Source: Desulfomicrobium orale DSM 12838 (GTDB taxonomy: Bacteria; Desulfobacterota; Desulfovibrionia; Desulfovibrionales; Desulfomicrobiaceae). Taken from it: DNA of 64,000 nucleotides. The notes below the pieces were generated by a model that saw only the letters and a program-made list of their open reading frames with translations, was not told the origin of the DNA and made no database searches. Position numbers and translations under genes: made by a program. The DNA is taken from contig NZ_CP014230.1 in the NCBI RefSeq assembly GCF_001553625.1, positions 1,302,001-1,366,000 of the forward strand, given 5' to 3'. Positions 5,004 to 45,083 of the stretch are shown here, in pieces; the first letter of the stretch is position 1; every line of letters starts with the position of its first letter.

Positions 5004-5810
5004 CTAGACGGCGTTTTCCTCGAACAGGGCCAGAGCCTGATCCACGGAGTAGTCCAGATGCACCACGCTGTGCAGAGCCCGCACCAGCCGGGCCGGGTCC
5101 TCGGCCTGGAAGATATTGCGCCCCATGGACAGCCCCGCGCCGCCGGCGGTGATGGAGTCGTGGGCCATTTGCAGGATTTCTCTGGGCGAGTCCATGCGCG
5201 GCCCGCCGGCAATGACCACGGGAACGCAGCAGCTTTCGGTCACTCTGGAGAAGGATTCGGGATCGCCGGTGTAGGCCACTTTGATCACGTCGGCGCCCAG
5301 CTCCACGCCCAGACGGGCGCAGTGAGCCACGGTGAACGCGTCCCATTCAGACTTCACCTTGGGGCCGCGGGCATAGACCATGGCCAGGAGCGGAATGCCC
5401 CATTCAGCGCAGGATGCGGACACCCGTCCCATGTCCCGGAGCATGTCCCGCTCCGATTCGTCACCCAGGTTCAGATGCACGGACACGGCATCGGCTCCGA
5501 GCTTGATGCCTTCCTCCACCGTACCCACCAGAACCTTGGCGTTGGGGAAAGGAGACAGGCTGGTGCTGGCGGAAAGATGGATGATGAGTCCGATGTCCCG
5601 GCCGTGCCTGCGGTGTCCGCACCGGGCCAGTCCCTTGTGCATGAGCACGGCGTTGGCTCCGCCTTCGGCCACCTTGTCTACGGTGACCCGTGTGTCCACC
5701 AGCCCGTCGATGGGGCCCACCGTGGTGCCGTGATCCAGGGGCACGATGATGGTTCTCTCCGTGTTACGGTTGAAAATTCGCTCCAGCCGGATACTCTTTC
5801 CCATGTGCAT
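5004..5810 (-). CDS. 2-amino-3,7-dideoxy-D-threo-hept-6-ulosonate synthase (class I aldolase family)
   Basis: This 268-residue protein belongs to the DeoC/LacD-like class I aldolase family that includes fructose-bisphosphate aldolase and ADTH synthase. It shows [17 protein letters not shown] near residue 20, a Schiff-base lysine candidate in [11 protein letters not shown], and a phosphate-binding [10 protein letters not shown] segment. Next to DHQ synthase II the ADTH synthase role is strongly preferred over glycolytic aldolase: it would join aspartate semialdehyde to a 6-deoxy-5-ketofructose phosphate. The ATG at 5810 has a strong AGGAG 8-9 bases upstream. It is the first enzyme gene of the operon and lies just downstream of a candidate transcription attenuator (see leader entries). 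Confidence 0.9.
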
Positions 5811-5847
5811 GATCGTCTCTCCTTAAATAATGAATTTCCGGCGGCGA

Positions 5848-5880
5848 AGAAAAAGGGCCGCCGGCGGTTGCCTGCGGCCC
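5848..5880 (-). terminator. Attenuator terminator of the aromatic operon
   Basis: On the minus strand GGGCCGC pairs with GCGGCCC. After one A/G mismatch the stem continues with GGC/GCC around an AACC loop, and TTTTTCTT follows. This is a strong intrinsic terminator placed between the leader peptide and the ADTH synthase start. Its 5' arm and loop (GGCAACCGCC, 5863-5872) can instead pair with GGCGTTGCC (5914-5922) in the last leader codons, with one bulged base. That is the alternative pairing expected of an antiterminator. Confidence 0.8.
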
Positions 5881-5909
5881 TCTAATGCTTTGCTCGTGTC
5901 GGAAAAAGA

Positions 5910-5999
5910 TTACGGCAACGCCTCCGGACCACAGGAATTGCGACAGTAATAATCGTAAACAAATACGTATGAATTTTGTGTGAACATGGAGCTTCTCAT
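5910..5999 (-). CDS. Phe/Tyr-rich leader peptide of the aromatic operon
   Basis: A 29-codon frame starts at the ATG at 5999 and stops with TAA at 5910-5912. Phe is at codons 6 and 13 and Tyr at codons 11, 15, 17 and 18, so six of thirteen consecutive codons (6-18) are aromatic. No Trp codon is present. The frame ends 30 bases before the terminator hairpin. A ribosome stalled on the Tyr/Phe codons would leave GGCGTTGCC (codons 26-29) free to form the antiterminator, whereas a ribosome reaching the stop would cover it and allow termination. No good ribosome-binding site is visible; an internal ATG at codon 5 is an alternative start. Confidence 0.72.
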   Translation of the reverse strand: MRSSMFTQNSYVFVYDYYCRNSCGPEALP

Positions 6000-6013
6000 A
6001 ATGGAGTTGTACC

Positions 6014-6039
6014 TATGCGCCGCTGTCGGAGGCTGTCAA
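6014..6039 (-). promoter_or_regulatory. Candidate promoter of the aromatic operon leader
   Basis: On the minus strand a perfect TTGACA (6034-6039) is followed after about 16-18 bases by a weak CATAGG/TAGGTA -10 region. Transcription would begin a few bases before the leader ATG at 5999, giving a very short untranslated leader. The -35 is convincing and the -10 is not. Confidence 0.45.
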
Positions 6040-6193
6040 GAAATAATCCGGTATGTTAAAAGATTTCATCCCGCCGGTCCGTTGGTCCGGGTCGGCCTCC
6101 GGAGCTTGCCGCCTGGACAGGCAGAGCATAGTGCGGAGCGAAAGGGAAACTCTGGGCCGTGGAGATCGCGGCCAGAAGACCATGGAGACGCCC

Positions 6194-6610
6194 ATGACCA
6201 CCGGAAAGGAACTGTCCAAGGTCGTCCGGAAACTCTGCCTGTGCTGCCAGGGGCAAAGCTGGAAGCTGGTCCGGGAGTGCGCCCAGAAGGGATGCTCCCT
6301 GCATGTCTTCCGGGACGGCGCAGCCGATGACGATGTCCTGCGTCCGGCCCTGGACGCCTTTTGTCTGGCCTGCGCGGGGAGTCCGGAAGAGGTGCTTCAC
6401 TGTCCGGCGGGACAGGCCATGGGCTCCCAGCCGCCCTGTCCGGCTCATCCTTTCCGGCCCGGCGCGCCGAGGCAGCGGCTCCGGACGCTGCCCGGTCTGG
6501 TGACGCGGGAAGCTTCGCCCGCCCCGGACGCGCGCCCGGCCGGAGAAGCTGAGGCCGCGACGGCGCTCTTCCCGCTGGAATTTTTGGCTCCCGAAGCGCC
6601 GGATATCTGA
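6194..6610 (+). CDS. Small cysteine-rich protein of unknown function
   Basis: 138 residues. The N-terminal third holds paired cysteines in the order LCLCCQG, RECAQKGCSLHVFRDG and FCLACAG, suggestive of a zinc- or metal-binding knuckle; a CPAHPFRPG segment follows. Short proteins with a C-x2-C, CPxxxCPLYPFR-like pattern are common in Desulfovibrio, but I know of no assigned function. The ATG at 6194 is preferred because GGAG stands 6 bases upstream; an ATG at 6182 is also possible. It is divergent from the aromatic operon leader, with about 150 bp between. The C-terminal third is Pro/Ala-rich and probably unstructured. Confidence 0.6.
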   Translation: MTTGKELSKVVRKLCLCCQGQSWKLVRECAQKGCSLHVFRDGAADDDVLRPALDAFCLACAGSPEEVLHCPAGQAMGSQPPCPAHPFRPGAPRQRLRTLPGLVTREASPAPDARPAGEAEAATALFPLEFLAPEAPDI

Positions 6611-6654
6611 ATCGGACGGCGGTCTGGATTCCGTAACAGCATCAGAGGACACAC

Positions 6655-7995
6655 ATGAGCAGATTCGACAGAAAAACCAGAGCCAGGCTGGACGCCTGGA
6701 CAAAGGCCGGGCTGATCTCCTCCGGGCAGGCCGCAGCCATTGACGCCTATGAAGAGGCCCGCAGCGGACCGTCCTGGGGAATCCTGGTCTTTGCGGGCTT
6801 CGGCGCGCTGGCGCTGGGCCTGGGCGTTATTTTGCTGTTCGCCTACAATTGGGAAAAGATGCATAAATTCGCCAAGCTGGGCGTCATTTTCGGAGGGCTC
6901 GCCCTGGCTCACGGCGCGGGCTTGTGGCTGCGCCGGGAAAATCGTCCCCTCTTGGCCGAGACGGCCCACCTTGTGGGAACCATGCTCTTCGGCGCAGGCA
7001 TTTTTCTGGTGGCGCAGATATACCATGTCTCCGCTCATTACCCTGACGCCTTCCTGATCTGGGCTCTCGGGGCGCTCCTTCTGACCTGGGTTCTGCCCTC
7101 GGTTCAGCAGGGCTGGCTGGCCTCGGGGCTGCTCTGCGTCTGGGCCTTTTCGGAATACATCTCCTACGATGCCAGAATGGCCGCCGCTCCGCTTCTGGTG
7201 TTCGCGGGCACGGGCCTTCCGGCCTGGAAGCTGCGCTCTCCGGCTCTGCTCACGGCTTCGGCCCTGTGCACCACCCTCACCGCCATGGCGGGCATTGTCG
7301 TGAGCGATGAAACCATTTTCATGATTCTGCTGTCCATGGCCGTGCTCTTCGCTGCTCTGGGCTGGCTGCTCCGGCGGCGCGGGGACTTCCCGCAGGCTTC
7401 GGCTGTTTTCAGAAACGTGAGCCTTGCGTTGTACCTCCCCTTGATGTTCGTCTTGAGCTTTTACGACATGGGCAGATTTCTCCTGCCTGAAGCCGGGTTC
7501 TGGCAGGATGAGCCGTTCGTTCTCTGGGGCCGGCTGGCCGCGCTCCTGCTGGCAAGCGCCGTACTGGGCGGCTGGGCCGTGTGGCAGGCCGTGCGCCGGG
7601 ACGAAGCGGGAACCGCCGCCTGCCGCGTGCATCTGCTGCTGCCCATCGCGGTGTATGCGGTCTATCTGTTGCTGGCTCTGGTTTTTTCCGCAGACCTGCC
7701 TGGTTTGGAACAGTCATACACGGTTTGGGTGATTCTGGCCGCGCTGGGCAGTCTGGCCTTTCTCCATCATGCCGTGTTGGGACTATGGGTCGGCTCGCGC
7801 GAAACCCGGCCCTGGCTGGTGGCGGGAAGCGCCCTGCTGCTGACCGCATGGGTCTTCGTACGGTTTGGCGATCTGTTTGAGAACCTGCTGGCGAGGGGCG
7901 CGGCTTTTCTGGTCCTGTCCGGGGCTCTTTTCTTCATTGCGGCCATGTATCACCGCCAGCGGCGGGAAGCGGCCGCCGGGAGGAACGCGTCATGA
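6655..7995 (+). CDS. DUF2157 family integral membrane protein
   Basis: 446 residues. A short cytoplasmic N-terminus contains the DUF2157 pattern (DAWTKAGLISSGQAAAIDAYE), followed by roughly a dozen hydrophobic segments from residue 43 to the end. Function is not established for the family. Its stop overlaps the start of the next gene by four bases (ATGA). The pairing of DUF2157 with a GDYXXLXY protein recurs in many bacteria and suggests that the two products work together in the envelope. The ATG at 6655 has an AGAGGA 7-12 bases upstream. Confidence 0.85.
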   Translation: MSRFDRKTRARLDAWTKAGLISSGQAAAIDAYEEARSGPSWGILVFAGFGALALGLGVILLFAYNWEKMHKFAKLGVIFGGLALAHGAGLWLRRENRPLLAETAHLVGTMLFGAGIFLVAQIYHVSAHYPDAFLIWALGALLLTWVLPSVQQGWLASGLLCVWAFSEYISYDARMAAAPLLVFAGTGLPAWKLRSPALLTASALCTTLTAMAGIVVSDETIFMILLSMAVLFAALGWLLRRRGDFPQASAVFRNVSLALYLPLMFVLSFYDMGRFLLPEAGFWQDEPFVLWGRLAALLLASAVLGGWAVWQAVRRDEAGTAACRVHLLLPIAVYAVYLLLALVFSADLPGLEQSYTVWVILAALGSLAFLHHAVLGLWVGSRETRPWLVAGSALLLTAWVFVRFGDLFENLLARGAAFLVLSGALFFIAAMYHRQRREAAAGRNAS

Positions 7996-8954
7996 AAACG
8001 GCAGCGGTCGTGGCCGCTATCGTCATACAGTTTGCGGTGCTCGGCTGGATGGCCGGGCAGCGGGAGTGGATCGTGCGCACCGGGCCTTCTGTCTGGTTGT
8101 GTACGGCACCTGTGGATCCGAGAGATCCGTTCCGGGGCGATTACGTAACCCTCGGGTACGAGATTTCCACCATTCCGGCAGAGAAATGCGGTCCGGCGCT
8201 GCGGGCCAAAATGGATGAAATGAACGCGACGCGGCATTGGCAGCAGGAAACGGTCATCTTCGTGGCTCTGGATGCCCGGGAAAACGGCTCCGCGGAAATC
8301 GTCAGCGCCGATCTGACCCCGCCCGAGTCGGGTCTGTTCATCAAAGGGCGGGTTCGGGGCGGCGGTGTCCACCCTTCGGGATTGGCCGGAGTGAGCTACG
8401 GCATCGACGCCTTCTTCGTGGAACAGGGGCGAGGCCGTGAACTGGAGCAGATCCCTAAGGGCACGCCCGAAGGAATGCGGGTACCGCTGGAAATGCGGGC
8501 GGCCTTCGGCTCCGGCGGCACGGCCGTTTTGACGGGCTATCGCTGGGGAGCTCTGGGCATTGGTCTGAAATCGGCATCGGAGACCAACGGCACCATGGAA
8601 ATGATCCTGCATAATGTCTCTTCCTCTCCGGTGGCCGTGGTCCTGCCCGAGGACCAGCGAACCCTGCGGCTGCGGGAAACTCCGGGGATGGATGTCTCAG
8701 AGCCGCGGATTCCGGTACCCTTTACGGACGGCGACGTGCGCGTAGTGGCTCCGGGCGAATCCGTGGCCGTGCCCGTCCGCGTCCGGCCGCAATGGCGGGA
8801 GCGGTTTGAGGACAAGTCATGGGCGGCATTTCAGCTTGTGTACACGGCGCCATCCGCCGCGGAATGTGCGGCTCTGAAGGACGCGGACAAGATCTGGCGT
8901 GGTTCTCTGGTCAGCGACAGGTTTGCGCCCAGGGATATCGTGGTGGAGGAGTAG
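7992..8954 (+). CDS. GDYXXLXY-domain membrane-anchored protein
   Basis: 320 residues. A single N-terminal membrane segment (residues 4-20) is followed by the family signature GDYVTLGYE near residue 52, after RDPFRGD. A duplicated GDYXXLXY half normally follows; the second half here (PEGMRVPLEMRAAFGSGG onward) is diverged. An extra C-terminal region of about 130 residues resembles a beta-sandwich with proline- and valine-rich strands. It is translationally coupled to the upstream DUF2157 gene by ATGA. The likely location is the periplasmic face of the inner membrane. No enzymatic role is known. Confidence 0.82.
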   Translation: MKTAAVVAAIVIQFAVLGWMAGQREWIVRTGPSVWLCTAPVDPRDPFRGDYVTLGYEISTIPAEKCGPALRAKMDEMNATRHWQQETVIFVALDARENGSAEIVSADLTPPESGLFIKGRVRGGGVHPSGLAGVSYGIDAFFVEQGRGRELEQIPKGTPEGMRVPLEMRAAFGSGGTAVLTGYRWGALGIGLKSASETNGTMEMILHNVSSSPVAVVLPEDQRTLRLRETPGMDVSEPRIPVPFTDGDVRVVAPGESVAVPVRVRPQWRERFEDKSWAAFQLVYTAPSAAECAALKDADKIWRGSLVSDRFAPRDIVVEE

Positions 8955-37859: not shown

Positions 37860-38828
<969 letters not shown>

Positions 38829-38922: not shown

Positions 38923-39804
38923 TTATTCCCTGAGAATCTGCGAAGGCTTGAGGCCGTGATGCTGCGCGAAGATTTTGGAAAAATGGCTCAGATTGGAGTA
39001 GCCGACTTCCAGGGCTGCCTCGGTGACGTTCCGGCCTTCGTGCCGCAGGAGATGCATCGCCCGCTCCATGCGGATCATGCGCAGATAGGCGTATGGTGGC
39101 ATGCCGTGCGCCTGGGTGAAGATCTGTTTGAGTTTGGACAGGCTCACGCCGACGCGTACGGCCAGGGCTTCCAGATGCGGCGGTTGCTCCATGTTGGCCT
39201 CCAGAATGGAGCGGGCTTCCCGGGCCGTGCGCAAAGATGCCTCCGAAAGCCTGGGGCGTGGCTCCGGCTGGGCAAAAATCCAGAGTATCTCCAGAATGCT
39301 GGAGAGCGCCAAGGGCTTTGCCTGGCCCGAATTTTCCGATGTGAGAGCGCGTAATCTGTTCAGAGCCTGGATCATGGCTGGGTTCGTGGGCCGGTGCAAA
39401 TGCAGAGGAGAATCGTTGTGCATGGCTTCTTCCAGTGCATTTCCGAGTGGCGTGTCCTTAACCAGGGCGCGAAGTTTTTCCGCCGGGCAGGTCACTTCCA
39501 GAAACCTGGCGCGGCAGGCCGGATCGCGCTGTGTGCGCTGTCCGTTTCCCGGGCTGTAAATCAGGGCGCAGTCGCCCGGCGCGATGTGCATGTCCTTGCA
39601 GGTTCCCGGCTGAGCCAGATTGAGGTGGACTTCCCCGTCCAGACATATGATCAGCAGGCAAGTGCTGCCGTCGCCCTCAAATACAGCGGGGGGGGCGGAC
39701 TCCGATTTTTTGAACGAAATATGGAACTGTTCAAAGCTCCAGTGGTGATTCTGTAAAGAAAAACTTTCGGAAATATCGGCTGTTGCGCGAAGATCCTCTA
39801 TCAT
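38923..39804 (-). CDS. AraC-family transcriptional regulator
   Basis: 293 residues from the ATG at 39804 (GCAGGGATAATT upstream; a TTG five codons earlier is less likely). The C-terminal 100 residues are a double helix-turn-helix AraC/XylS domain: VRVGVSLSKLKQIFTQAHG, AYLRMIRMERAMHLLR and ALEVGYSNLSHFSKIFAQHHG. The N-terminal 190 residues resemble the PchR/siderophore-regulator type cupin-like sensor domain. It is transcribed away from the fez-like operon that begins 470 bp on the other side, so it is the obvious candidate regulator of that operon. Effector unknown. Confidence 0.88.
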   Translation of the reverse strand: MIEDLRATADISESFSLQNHHWSFEQFHISFKKSESAPPAVFEGDGSTCLLIICLDGEVHLNLAQPGTCKDMHIAPGDCALIYSPGNGQRTQRDPACRARFLEVTCPAEKLRALVKDTPLGNALEEAMHNDSPLHLHRPTNPAMIQALNRLRALTSENSGQAKPLALSSILEILWIFAQPEPRPRLSEASLRTAREARSILEANMEQPPHLEALAVRVGVSLSKLKQIFTQAHGMPPYAYLRMIRMERAMHLLRHEGRNVTEAALEVGYSNLSHFSKIFAQHHGLKPSQILRE

Positions 39805-40274
39805 AATTATCCCTGCCAAAAGATTCGGGCTTTATACTGCAGAACTGTGAATATTGTTAGTTATGACGAATTCTTGGGATTCCTAATAAAATTTCCTTCA
39901 AATTGGCAAGAGGGGGCTGGATGCCTGTTGGAAAAGAAAAATGCGGGCAGGTATCTGTATGGTGGTCAGTAATTTCAGTTAATTATCCTGCATGGCCTTG
40001 TCTTCTTCTTTGAGATGGTATGTCTCTGTCCGCAAAAAAGTCATATTGACAGCATCTGATACGGGCGTTAGGCAATCAGATTTCATGAGCCCCGGCTAAA
40101 ATATTATTTCCGTGAATTTCATGAAACTCCCTCCCTTAGTTGGAAAAAAGGGAGGAGCTAAGGTGTGTTTCCTTGTGGTTTATTTGCGGGTTTGAACTTG
40201 ATTGGAGTGGTAAAAAAAACGGAACAGGTGGCGGTTCGCTGCCGTTGTTGCTAAGCCCTCTCCCGGAGCGTGTC
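39805..40274. other. Divergent control region between araC-type gene and fez-like operon
   Basis: About 470 bp, AT-rich, without a supported gene. A TTGACA at about 40047 on the plus strand is followed by weak -10 candidates, and a GAATTTCATGAAAC stretch lies near 40111-40125. An open frame from 40140 runs into the first fez-like gene, but its beginning is low-complexity and not protein-like. Confidence 0.5.
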
Positions 40275-40655
40275 GTGAAAGAACAAGATGATCCCAACAG
40301 CGCGTGCCCGCATGAGATGTACAGGCTCTACCTGCTGGAATTGCGCCCGCATGTGGTTGTGGCGCACCACCTGCCAGGCCGGTTGCGGGTCCGGGTACGG
40401 CCCGGGCTGGCGGCGATCAGGATGCTCAGCCGCCATGCGGCGGACGGTCCTGACGCGTTGCATCGGCTTTTGCCCGGACATCCTGCGGTGCATGTGAATC
40501 CGTTGAGCGGATCATTGGTTCTGGAGTATGCTCCCTCCCTCATTCCGTTCGAACTGCTGGACGAGTTCTTCCGTACCGGCAGCGATGAACAGGCGGCGGC
40601 TTTGTTGGACCGCCTGCTTGGTTCAAACCTGCAACCAAAGGAGACCGCATTATGA
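40275..40655 (+). CDS. HMA-like metal-binding-fold protein, first gene of fez-like operon
   Basis: 126 residues from a GTG with GGAG 7 bases upstream. The core reads VVVAHHLPGRLRVRVRPGLA, then HPAVHVNPLSGSLVLEY. This is the HMA_2 pattern (HxxPGRxRxR, 'G-v-xNp-TGSllV-Y') that also forms the N-terminal domain of the P1B ATPase two genes downstream. The classical CxxC metal site is absent. It overlaps the next gene by ATGA. In ferrosome loci this kind of protein corresponds to FezC-like proteins. No membrane segment is seen. The start could also be the ATG at 40317. Confidence 0.7.
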   Translation: MKEQDDPNSACPHEMYRLYLLELRPHVVVAHHLPGRLRVRVRPGLAAIRMLSRHAADGPDALHRLLPGHPAVHVNPLSGSLVLEYAPSLIPFELLDEFFRTGSDEQAAALLDRLLGSNLQPKETAL

Positions 40656-40939
40656 ATGAATCGACTCAGAAAGTTCTGCTGTTTTTGGGTGGCCTGGCCC
40701 TGGGAACCCTGGGTGCCTCGATGTTGAACAAGCACTCCAGTTCGCTGCGGCCGGCCATGACCGGACTGACCGCTGGTGCGCTCGAACTGCGTGACAAGGC
40801 TGTGGGCATGCTGCAGCGCACCAAAGAGGACGTGAGCGACTTCATGGCCGAAGTGGAATACGCGCGTACGGCCAAAGCCGCGGAAACCGAACCTGTAAAG
40901 CCGAAGAAATCCGGGAAGCGCGCTTCTTCGGCGTCCTAA
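40652..40939 (+). CDS. FezA-like small hydrophobic-segment protein (DUF6110 type)
   Basis: 95 residues. The N-terminal hydrophobic stretch KVLLFLGGLALGTLGASML with small-residue Gly pattern is followed by an amphipathic helix (ALELRDKAVGMLQRTKEDVS) and a basic Lys/Ala tail. This FLGGxALGTxG lead plus helical tail matches my memory of DUF6110/FezA proteins, which are tied to the ferrosome membrane. It is coupled to the upstream gene by ATGA and precedes the P1B ATPase by 9 bp with AAGGAG. A role in membrane insertion or organisation of the compartment is inferred, not shown. Confidence 0.7.
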   Translation: MNESTQKVLLFLGGLALGTLGASMLNKHSSSLRPAMTGLTAGALELRDKAVGMLQRTKEDVSDFMAEVEYARTAKAAETEPVKPKKSGKRASSAS

Positions 40940-40948
40940 GGAGAAAAT

Positions 40949-43030
40949 GTGGCTCTTTCCATCGTTCATGATCTGCCCGGGAGAATACGTCTGCGCGGGG
41001 CTTCCCGCGAGGATGCCCATGTATTGAGCCGGGGCCGTGGCGTCCGTTCGCGCGCTGGTGTGCTCGACGTGCGCCACTCCGCCGCCGGTGTGAGTCTTCT
41101 GGTCCTGTATGATCCCTCCGTGTTGGAGAGGGCGGACCTGCTGCTGGCTCTGCACGAGGCTTTCATTACCGAGCCGGTTGCGGGTGTGGAGATGCCGGAA
41201 GAACCCCCGCAGACCTTGACGGGCCTTTTTCTGCCGCTGGCCATACGGCCGCTCATGCCTATGGGCCTGCGGCAGCTCCTTGCCCTGAAACAGGCTTGGC
41301 CCCGGCTGAAAAAAGGGCTGGGCAGCCTGATCCGGGGCGCGCTGGACGTGGATGTGCTGGATGCCGCAGCCATAGGCCTGTGCCTGTTGCGCCGGGATTT
41401 CCGGACATTGACGTCCATCAGCCTGTTGCTCGGTCTGGGCGAGTTTCTGGAACAGTGGACCAGAAAGCGCTCTGAAGAGAGCCTGGCCAATTCCTTGGGC
41501 GCGCAATCCGTAAAGGCCCAGCTCCGCCGGGGCGAGGAAGAAATCGTGATCGATGCCACGGCGCTTCGCGTGGGCGATGTGGTGGTGGTGCGCCAGGGCC
41601 AGTTTATTCCGGCCGATGGCGTGGTCATGGACGGGGAAGGGCTGGTGGATCAGAGCCTCATGACGGGCGAGGCGGCCTTGCAGGAAAAACGAGCGGGCAA
41701 GGCCGTCTTTGCCGGTTCTCTGCTGGAGGAAGGCGAGATCTTCATCCAGGCCACTGAAGACGGGGACAAGACCGTGTGGCGGCGGACGCTCCATCTGCTG
41801 CAGGACGCCGAACAGCGCAAGGCCGGCATCCAGGGGCAGGCGGAACGTCTGGCCAGCAGGCTGGCGCCCTTCTCCCTGGCGCTGGCAGCTCTGGTCTTCC
41901 TTATTACCCGCGACCCGCGGCGGGCCGCTGCGGTGCTTTTGGTGGATTACTCCTGCGCCATCAAACTGGCCACACCTTTGGCGGTGCTTTCGGCCATGCG
42001 GCAGGCTACGGGCCTTGGAGCCACGGTGCGGGGGGGCCGCCATCTGGAAGATCTGGCCAAGGCCGATGCCTTTGTTTTCGATAAAACCGGTACTTTGACC
42101 ATGGCCTCGCCCGTGGTCAAGGAGATCGTCCCCTATAACGGCTGGAGCCGGGTGGAAGCCCTGCGCTTGGCCGCCTGCCTGGAAGAACACTTCCCCCACC
42201 CTGTGGCCAAGGCTGTGGTGCATCTGGCCTCTGAAGAGGGATTGGATCATGCCGAGCGCCATGCCACTGTGGAATATGTGGCCGCGCACGGGGTTGCCAG
42301 CTGTTTGGACGGGCAGCGGGTGCTTCTGGGCAGCCGGCATTTTGTGGAGGAGGACGAAGAGGTTGATGTGTCCCAGATGGATACTGTGGTCGAGGCCTGG
42401 AACACCGAAGGACGAACCATCCTCTATCTGGCCGTGGGAGGAGAGCTGGCGGCCGGTTTCGCTCTGGAGGATCCCGCCCGTCCCGAGGCGGCGGCGGTGG
42501 TCGCCAGCTTGCGGGCCTCCGGCGTCAAGCGGGTGGTCATGCTCACGGGAGACCTGGAGGGCATGGCCGCGCGCATGGCTCCGGAAATCGGAGTCACGGA
42601 GTGGATTTCCCAGGTCCTGCCCGATGACAAGTTCCGCTACATAAAGGAGTTGAAAGAGGCGGGGTATGTTGTGGCCATGGTCGGGGATGGCATGAACGAC
42701 GCGGCCGCTCTGGCCGAAGCCTCGGTGGGCTGCTGCATGCGTCAGGGCGCGGACATGGCCCGGGATGCCGCGGATGTCGTCCTGTCCACAAACGATCTGA
42801 CCGTACTGCCGGCGTTACGGGCCTTGTCCGTGGCGACGCTGGGCCGCATACGGCGCAATTTCGCGTTCATAGTGGGGATCAATTCCCTGCTGCTTCTGGG
42901 CGGACTTTTTGGTTTCTCTTCGCCCGCTCTGGGCGCGCTCCTGCACAATTCAGGTACCATCGCCGCCGCCTTGAACGCCATCCGGCCGTACTCCCTGCCC
43001 ATGATTCCGGAAAACAGACAAAGGAGTTAA
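40949..43030 (+). CDS. fezB: P1B-type metal-transporting ATPase (FezB-like)
   Basis: 693 residues. The N-terminal 70 are an HMA_2-like domain (HDLPGRIRLRG). Membrane helices follow. The actuator motif is LMTGEAA, the phosphorylation site is DKTGTLT, the nucleotide domain has the HP motif in EEHFPHPVAKAVV, and the hinge is GDGMNDAAAL. The metal-site helix reads VDYSCAIKLATPLAV, so the common CPC/SPC is replaced by SCA, the class (P1B-6) to which FezB of ferrosomes belongs. FezB is thought to pump iron into the ferrosome lumen. The start ('GTGGCTCTTTCC' region) is GTG with AAGGAGAA upstream. Confidence 0.85.
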   Translation: MALSIVHDLPGRIRLRGASREDAHVLSRGRGVRSRAGVLDVRHSAAGVSLLVLYDPSVLERADLLLALHEAFITEPVAGVEMPEEPPQTLTGLFLPLAIRPLMPMGLRQLLALKQAWPRLKKGLGSLIRGALDVDVLDAAAIGLCLLRRDFRTLTSISLLLGLGEFLEQWTRKRSEESLANSLGAQSVKAQLRRGEEEIVIDATALRVGDVVVVRQGQFIPADGVVMDGEGLVDQSLMTGEAALQEKRAGKAVFAGSLLEEGEIFIQATEDGDKTVWRRTLHLLQDAEQRKAGIQGQAERLASRLAPFSLALAALVFLITRDPRRAAAVLLVDYSCAIKLATPLAVLSAMRQATGLGATVRGGRHLEDLAKADAFVFDKTGTLTMASPVVKEIVPYNGWSRVEALRLAACLEEHFPHPVAKAVVHLASEEGLDHAERHATVEYVAAHGVASCLDGQRVLLGSRHFVEEDEEVDVSQMDTVVEAWNTEGRTILYLAVGGELAAGFALEDPARPEAAAVVASLRASGVKRVVMLTGDLEGMAARMAPEIGVTEWISQVLPDDKFRYIKELKEAGYVVAMVGDGMNDAAALAEASVGCCMRQGADMARDAADVVLSTNDLTVLPALRALSVATLGRIRRNFAFIVGINSLLLLGGLFGFSSPALGALLHNSGTIAAALNAIRPYSLPMIPENRQRS

Positions 43031-43033
43031 GTC

Positions 43034-43456
43034 ATGATCACACATTCGATTCCCGGTCGCATCCGGGTGCGGCATGCCACGCCCCTGACTGAGGACGCCT
43101 TGAATACTCTGACCAGCGATATTCGGAAGCTTGCTCCCTCCGCGCGGGTGGAGCACAATCCGGAGACATGCGGCACGCTCATTGTTTTCGAGGAGAAAGA
43201 CGCCTCGCCCGCTGTTGTGGAACTGTGCGGCGGACGGGAAGACACCGCCGCTCCGGCGGGCGGCTGTCCCATGCCGCAGCTGAAGATTCCGTGGCCGAGC
43301 ATGCGTGTCGTCAAACGGGGCATGTCCGCGTCCCTGCTCGCCTCCATGGGACTTTTGGCTCTGAACCGCGAAGGCGCTCACGCGCTCTTCGGAAGCGTCT
43401 TTCTGGCTTGCTTGGCGCGTCACGCCTGGGTCTACAGGCGGCGACTGATTCAATAG
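43034..43456 (+). CDS. HMA-like domain protein with C-terminal membrane segment (FezC-like)
   Basis: 140 residues. It starts ITHSIPGRIRVRHATPL, the third HMA_2-like domain in this operon. A middle loop holds three cysteines (NPETCGTLIVF, VELCGGRED, GGCPMPQ). The C-terminus has one or two hydrophobic stretches (MSASLLASMGLLAL; FGSVFLACLARHAW) that probably anchor it. It lies 3 bp after the ATPase and ends the operon before a terminator. By position and fold it is the best FezC counterpart. No CxxC metal-binding pair is visible. Confidence 0.7.
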   Translation: MITHSIPGRIRVRHATPLTEDALNTLTSDIRKLAPSARVEHNPETCGTLIVFEEKDASPAVVELCGGREDTAAPAGGCPMPQLKIPWPSMRVVKRGMSASLLASMGLLALNREGAHALFGSVFLACLARHAWVYRRRLIQ

Positions 43457-43504: not shown

Positions 43505-43539
43505 AAACGCGGTATTCGAAGTGGATGCCGCGTTTTTTG
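43505..43539 (+). terminator. Terminator of fez-like operon
   Basis: AAACGCGG-x-AT pairs with AT-x-CCGCGTTT around a short loop, followed by TTTTG. Confidence 0.85.
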
Positions 43540-43708: not shown

Positions 43709-43850
43709 AATTATTTTGCGATTTAAGTCATAACTGGTTGAATAAAAAAATAGTCTTTAAAAATGAAATTTACAGAATTTCAGTAAGCCAAATGGAGCCG
43801 TTCTCCCGGTTGGACTCTTTTTGGTGGAGAATGGGACGGAGGGTTTTCAT

Positions 43851-45083
43851 ATGAATATGTTTGTTGAGGCACTGAGCGGTTCCGGCGGGATTGATGCCGT
43901 GACGTATGCGCCGCAGAGAAAAAAAATATGGGAAATGGATCAGGTTTTCCGCTGCCCGGTGGTGGGCATGTGTCTGAGTGTGAAAGAGCAGCGCCTGTTG
44001 TGCCGCAAGGTTGGTGCCGGAGTACAGGTCAAGTCGGATTTCGGGATTCACGAGATGATCGTGGCGACCATGAACGGCGAGAATCCGCTTTCCCGGAAGC
44101 TGGAGAATATGCTGGCCAAAAAGTACGAAGCGTCCTGTTCCATCTATCTGGACATGGCTGAAGCGGATTTTCTGGATTGCTGGCACCGGGCTCTCGAATC
44201 GGGGGATTACGGCGGCCTGCTGTGGGCGGCGGCCGTGCGGCCGCTCAGTAATACCGCGTTGGTGGATGTCTTTGGCTCTTTGCATATGGCCATGCACGAG
44301 CACGCCAAGATGTATTGCGACCTGAAGAGGGCCCGGGAGGCAGCCGAGGAAAAATATCTTCAGCTTAAGGGTGGCGTCAGGGAAAACGAAAAGCAGCGCC
44401 GCACGCTTCATTCCGAAAATGAGCAGCTGCGCGAGTCTTTGGCGCGCACCAGAGAGCAGCTGGAAGAGCTCCGGCATGAAAGGGATGACGCCGTTTCGCG
44501 GATAGCCACAGCTCCTGAGGAGAAGAGCGAGGCCGTTCAGACCCGGATGGACGAGATGCAGGAGGAGATCGCCGCTCTCAGAAAGCAGGTCGAAGAGAAG
44601 GATCTCGAGCTGCTGCAACTGACCGGGCAGTTTTTGGATCTGGAGGAAGAACGTGATTCGTTGCGGGAAGAAGTGGAGGCCCACCGGGCTGTGGCCGCGG
44701 CCATGCACGATGCGGTGCCGGAGGCGGAAGTGCCGGAAGGATGCAGCTGCTCCCCCGATTGCCCTTCATATGATCTGTGTAAGAAGCGTATTCTCATTGT
44801 GGGTGGCATTGAGCGCATGGAGTCAGCGTACCGCAAGCTCGTGGAGGAACGCGGCGGAATTCTCGAATACCACGCGGGACATATGAAATCCGGCGGCAGA
44901 GCACTGGAAAACAGCGTACAGCGGGCGGATCTGGTACTGTGCCCGGTCAACTGCAACAGTCACGGAGCCTGTCTCATGGTCAAAAATCTGGGAAAGAAAT
45001 ACAAGAAGCCTGTGCATATGCTGCCTAATTTCAGTCTGAGCACCCTTGCCCGGACAGTGGAAGAGATACACAGTACAAATTAG
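43851..45083 (+). CDS. Coiled-coil protein with C-terminal DUF2325 domain
   Basis: 410 residues. The N-terminal 150 form an unrecognised domain with cysteines (FRCPVVGMCLS). Residues 165-300 are a long Glu/Arg coiled coil. A Cys cluster follows (CSCSPDCPSYDLCKKR), and the last 105 residues are a DUF2325 domain: ILIVGGIERMESAYRKLVEE, YHAGHMKSGG, ADLVLCPVNCNSHG, KNLGKKYKKPVHML. DUF2325 has a Rossmann-like core of unknown function. The ATG at 43851 has GGAGGG 7 bases upstream and is preferred over an ATG ten codons earlier. It is separated from the fez-like operon by a terminator and has its own operator-like palindrome. Confidence 0.8.
   Translation: MNMFVEALSGSGGIDAVTYAPQRKKIWEMDQVFRCPVVGMCLSVKEQRLLCRKVGAGVQVKSDFGIHEMIVATMNGENPLSRKLENMLAKKYEASCSIYLDMAEADFLDCWHRALESGDYGGLLWAAAVRPLSNTALVDVFGSLHMAMHEHAKMYCDLKRAREAAEEKYLQLKGGVRENEKQRRTLHSENEQLRESLARTREQLEELRHERDDAVSRIATAPEEKSEAVQTRMDEMQEEIAALRKQVEEKDLELLQLTGQFLDLEEERDSLREEVEAHRAVAAAMHDAVPEAEVPEGCSCSPDCPSYDLCKKRILIVGGIERMESAYRKLVEERGGILEYHAGHMKSGGRALENSVQRADLVLCPVNCNSHGACLMVKNLGKKYKKPVHMLPNFSLSTLARTVEEIHSTN

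Follow-up and report, generated by a model that had tools for sequence, protein, structure and literature searches.

A ferrosome-type fez operon with one accessory HMA-like gene in Desulfomicrobium orale

In a 64,000-nucleotide stretch of the Desulfomicrobium orale DSM 12838 chromosome (hereafter the window), we identified four genes that form a fez operon and that, judging from the genes themselves, most likely make ferrosomes, the small membrane-enclosed iron stores that fez genes are known to build in some bacteria. The FezA-FezB-FezC order is shared with the ferrosome model Solidesulfovibrio (Desulfovibrio) magneticus RS-1 (hereafter RS-1) and the P1B ATPase (FezB) falls within the clade of its RS-1 counterpart, which upholds the original prediction of a ferrosome-type fez operon. 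The locus is an ordinary member of the known fez system, set apart by a single accessory gene and perhaps by its control, because a FezA-like gene lies immediately upstream of 13 of 13 ATPases carrying the TM4 motif SCA, vs. 1 of 67 other ATPases. These 80 loci were drawn from named genomes using generic P-type ATPase motifs, and therefore sample P-type ATPases broadly and do not rank fez loci by closeness; the FezA profile applied to them was built from Desulfovibrionales loci. What had initially appeared odd about the locus is usual for fez loci.

Layout and conservation of the operon

The four genes span 40275-43456, all intact, on the + strand and with nearly no spacing (Table 1), and their ORF coordinates agree with the extent and tight packing first proposed. 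HMA1 begins at a GTG codon with GGAG 6 nt upstream, an ATGA overlap joins its end to the start of the FezA-like gene, and a plausible ribosome-binding site precedes each of the four genes. We found 10 terminator-like hairpins in the region, compared with 4.9 expected, with the one 3' of fezC having by far the longest stem. Downstream of the operon there is also a DDE transposase gene. The DUF2325 protein encoded directly downstream of fez has a coiled-coil middle. Homologues over nearly its full length occur in no more than three other Desulfomicrobium genomes, and most others match its DUF2325 end only.

Table 1. Features of the fez locus (positions in the window) and of the RS-1 locus L034 (positions in that locus)
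Feature	Position	Strand	Description
Flavodoxin gene	38388-38828		Upstream of the fez operon
AraC-family regulator gene	38923-39819	-	Divergent from fez; candidate operon regulator
HMA1	40275-40655	+	Stand-alone HMA_2-like protein, 126 aa, without CxxC, G-R-x-R present; accessory operon gene
FezA-like (DUF6110-like)	40652-40939	+	95 aa; Gly-rich N-terminal hydrophobic segment, charged C-terminus
FezB	40949-43030	+	P1B-6-type ATPase, 693 aa; N-terminal CxxC-less HMA-like domain, TM4 SCA
FezC	43034-43456	+	HMA-like domain and two-helix membrane tail, His116 and His130
Terminator-like hairpin	43505-43535	+	14 pairs, 3' of fezC
DUF2325 protein gene	43839-45083		Downstream of the fez operon
RS-1 FezA	5456-5716		Locus L034
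RS-1 FezB	5732-7963		Locus L034
RS-1 FezC	7944-8384		Locus L034

All four genes are kept in a sister genome, G014 (FezB 97% and HMA1 89% identical), and other genera show the arrangement as well, which argues that it is not due to chance. The same four components occur in Desulfovibrionaceae genus g25 (loci L045, in genome G236, and L011, in G089), where FezB is about 50-53% identical to that of the window and no AraC neighbour was found; L045 also has the gene order HMA1-FezA-FezB-FezC, as in the window. The presence of two separate HMA-like proteins, correctly pointed out at the start, is thus not unusual, as the same extra gene is found in both of these loci.

FezA, FezB and FezC and their relatives

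To compare the window with a known system, we used RS-1, identified as genome G172, whose contig 3 shows a 100% match to plasmid NC_012797.1 across 8 kb. Locus L034 in this genome is presumably the published fez locus, since it contains RS-1's only FezB match (E <= 1e-90) along with a FezC tail that gives a weak DUF4405-like match. It has the same FezA-FezB-FezC order and strand, SCA motif and tail histidines as the window, and differs by the absence of an HMA1 gene.

FezB of the window is 47% identical to RS-1 FezB, has clear E1-E2 ATPase and HAD hydrolase matches in Pfam, and retains intact DKTGTLT, TGE, EEHFPHP and GDGMND motifs. In a tree of 69 P-type ATPases rooted on KdpB (IQ-TREE; quick search with SH-aLRT support only), it belongs to a branch of 22 rows, all SCA (SH-aLRT 100), which also holds RS-1's only such ATPase, while E. 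coli CopA, E. coli ZntA and both CPC-type pumps of the window genome lie outside. A phylogeny had been named as a check on the original prediction, and the ATPase indeed branches apart from copper and zinc exporters. The SCA remarked on in place of CPC is present (TM4 motif DYSCAIKLATP), but represents the normal signature of the clade and not a departure. Taken overall, SCA rows require three label changes on the tree, because one Rhodobacter ATPase with ACP and two paralogues with ACA fall among them.

The Rhodobacter case, in Rhodobacter capsulatus DSM 1710 (L074 7674-10572), is a Fez-clade ATPase with ACP for SCA that adjoins FezA-like and HMA genes. We also observed larger fez-like clusters in Desulfovibrionaceae (L046 1521-12522, L047 828-11413, L048 1153-8896 and L049 301-7613), with up to three adjacent P1B ATPases. 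In L046 and L047 these ATPases comprise one of CPC type, one of SCA type (FezB) and one with FACA for SCA, and both clusters additionally carry HMA1, FezA-like genes and a FezC tail that lacks an HMA domain.

The second gene encodes a small membrane protein adjoining fezB, as in fez operons, and resembles its RS-1 counterpart (phmmer E 2.8e-14), the FezA similarity that had been named as a further check. Its Pfam match to DUF6110 is weak (14.7 bits, cut-off 26), with the cut-off being passed by DUF6110-like proteins of relatives in Mailhella (L066) and Anaerotignum (L060), which bears out the DUF6110/FezA-like assignment of this gene. A search of viral contigs returned no relative of the FezA-like protein. 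In Lachnospiraceae fez loci, too, an SCA-type P1B ATPase is immediately preceded by a FezA-like gene but, unlike in the window, no FezC- or HMA1-like gene was found within 6 kb in the loci sampled. In C. difficile, FezA and FezB are required for ferrosomes and are Fur-repressed (review, PMC12574912).

Gene 4 had been described as a second HMA-like protein with a membrane tail, which has its domains right but misses its identity: by sequence it is FezC, with candidate heme-ligand histidines in the tail. It matches RS-1 FezC (E 7.4e-9) with both tail histidines kept, and the pattern H-x3-[GS]-x9-H is found in every complete FezC tail examined, whether HMA-fused or separately encoded. FezC proteins form a ferrosome heme-b cytochrome family with a DUF4405-like tail that includes D. 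magneticus FezC (PMC10979944), so the telling part of gene 4 is this tail and not the HMA domain. By analogy with the published family, from which heme binding is taken, the FezC of the window is likely a cytochrome; it shares with FezC/DUF4405 cytochromes such as Desulfurispirillum indicum FezC a membrane tail with paired histidines, here predicted from sequence. Its Pfam HMA_2 match stays under the cut-off (E 4.6e-4, 20.6 bits), which the HMA_2 domains of L045, L066, L068 and RS-1 FezC pass. An AlphaFold model places a beta-beta-alpha-beta-beta-alpha N-terminal domain ahead of two long helices, with both histidines on the last helix.

HMA1 and HMA domains without CxxC

HMA1 gives a weak Pfam match to HMA_2 (14.3 bits, cut-off 30), and is recognized by a profile of stand-alone HMA proteins from other Desulfovibrionales fez loci, built with the window and its sister left out (E 1.7e-18, 64 bits, compared with at most 39.6 bits for the HMA domains of FezB and FezC). 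Invariant residues in this family include P-G-R-x-R and E-Y. The structural models of HMA1 and FezC have moderate confidence (mean pLDDT 78 for HMA1 and 80 for FezC), neither had a Foldseek match in the PDB at E <= 0.001, and the FezC N-terminus bears a weak likeness to ferredoxin-like folds, with Atx1 among many. The term "HMA-like" for HMA1 therefore rests on the profile and the invariant residues, as its Pfam score is below cut-off and its model lacks a significant structural match. Fez is accompanied by this family in some relatives, including a related Desulfovibrionaceae genus in which both FezC and a stand-alone HMA gene follow fezB, and the family is absent from RS-1, where its profile matches only the FezB N-terminus; we therefore regard HMA1 as accessory.

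As first noted, none of the three HMA domains (HMA1, FezB and FezC) contains CxxC. Across these domains in several phyla, from Bacillota to cyanobacteria, the only invariant residues are G-R-x-R, a pattern consistent with a non-metal, assembly-type role. One tentative possibility, compatible with a ferrosome operon, is that the G-R-x-R domains serve as an assembly code, binding each other, or else phosphate or the head groups of lipids, and thereby clustering the parts on one vesicle. The absence of CxxC and the presence of G-R-x-R, the sole invariant motif, in every HMA-bearing part of the locus would fit such a code, but the fold comparison yielded no significant match for the HMA1 and FezC models, and the arginines could act otherwise, for example by binding an anionic iron ligand.

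Distribution, regulation and proposed function

In the order, 125 of 247 sampled genomes have a FezB match at E <= 1e-90 (SCA checked in part); within Desulfomicrobium, FezB matches occur in 2 of 16 genomes, namely the window genome and G014. This pattern within the genus makes acquisition or repeated loss of fez likely. Gain by transfer is the simplest reading, with loss in other Desulfomicrobium species as a possible alternative. The nearest FezB proteins outside the genus, at 55-58% identity, come from Desulfovibrionaceae genus g34 and form one branch with that of the window in the tree. All four g34 genomes with fezB also encode, just upstream of fezA, a conserved protein of ~210-290 aa (L037 4660-5286, L038 4705-5436, L036 4587-5363 and L009 1-867). 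Its N-terminus is helix-turn-helix-like and it has no match in Pfam; it is possibly a fez regulator.

Links to iron are visible around fez loci of the order: among 28 short-flanked Desulfovibrionales loci, 17 have feoA adjoining fez, mostly those of one genus. For Fur-like palindromes we searched with a 14-position sequence that we take to be the consensus, TGAAAATNATTTTCA. Measured against this assumed consensus, five relatives have a palindrome upstream of fez matching 12 of 14 positions, a score reached in 0 of 200 mononucleotide shuffles each; upstream of fez in the window no such box was found, the best site matching 9 of 14 positions and being equalled in 162 of 200 shuffles. Fur-family genes are encoded in the window genome. 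The divergent AraC regulator has a homologue (48%) in G004, a fez-less Desulfomicrobium, where it immediately precedes feoB in the same orientation (L155 1-2382), and this adjacency makes the regulator a candidate for iron-linked control of fez, which we treat as a lead. A further reading, that HMA1 is a lineage-limited ferrosome adaptor acting through its arginine motif and not by binding metal, while in these Desulfomicrobium an iron-linked AraC regulator has replaced Fur in controlling the operon, we regard as unlikely.

In the favored explanation, a ferrosome-making fez operon, FezB would sit in the vesicle membrane as a P1B-6 ATPase and pump iron, presumably Fe(II), from the cytoplasm into the lumen. 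FezA, as a small Gly-rich membrane protein, would be needed for vesicle formation, and FezC would act as a heme-b cytochrome of the vesicle membrane whose electron transfer may oxidize iron for storage or reduce it for release. HMA1 would be an accessory HMA-type protein without metal ligands, probably contacting FezB or FezC. Organelle formation in D. orale is something we infer from the fez genes of other species. The window genome also has ferritin-family genes, and so could store iron by means other than fez.

The sequence evidence would also fit any P1B-6 ATPase that moves Fe2+, and HMA1 together with the missing Fur-like box sets the locus slightly apart from RS-1, as might be expected if fez here were a cell-membrane pump for ferrous-iron efflux or detoxification with no organelle; we consider this very unlikely, given that FezA and FezC, non-pump parts tied to the organelle elsewhere, are both present and conserved. 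It is almost certainly wrong to read the ATPase as an ordinary exporter of copper or zinc/cadmium with the small proteins as its metallochaperones: general P1B profiles fit well (TIGR01525, 488 bits) and the three HMA-like domains have a superficial likeness to a CopA/CopZ set, but FezB scores under the TIGR01511 copper cut-off, departs from P1B-1 copper exporters (CopA) in having SCA and not CPC, no CxxC in this or any other HMA domain of the locus and a position outside their clade, departs from P1B-2 zinc/cadmium exporters (ZntA) in lacking CPC in TM4 and lying outside theirs, and is encoded in a genome that already has two CPC pumps, so that the fully supported Fez clade largely refutes this reading and, with the TM4 motif, led us to reject either exporter identity.

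Apart from HMA1 and the sequence rules that emerge from the comparison, the fez operon of D. orale matches what published work would lead one to expect. An SCA-type P1B ATPase beside a FezA-like gene predicts fez, H-x3-[GS]-x9-H marks FezC, and HMA1 can be counted as an optional component of the system. With this locus Desulfomicrobium, a genus with a human oral species, joins the likely ferrosome makers, and the small, clean operon lends itself to studies of iron storage.
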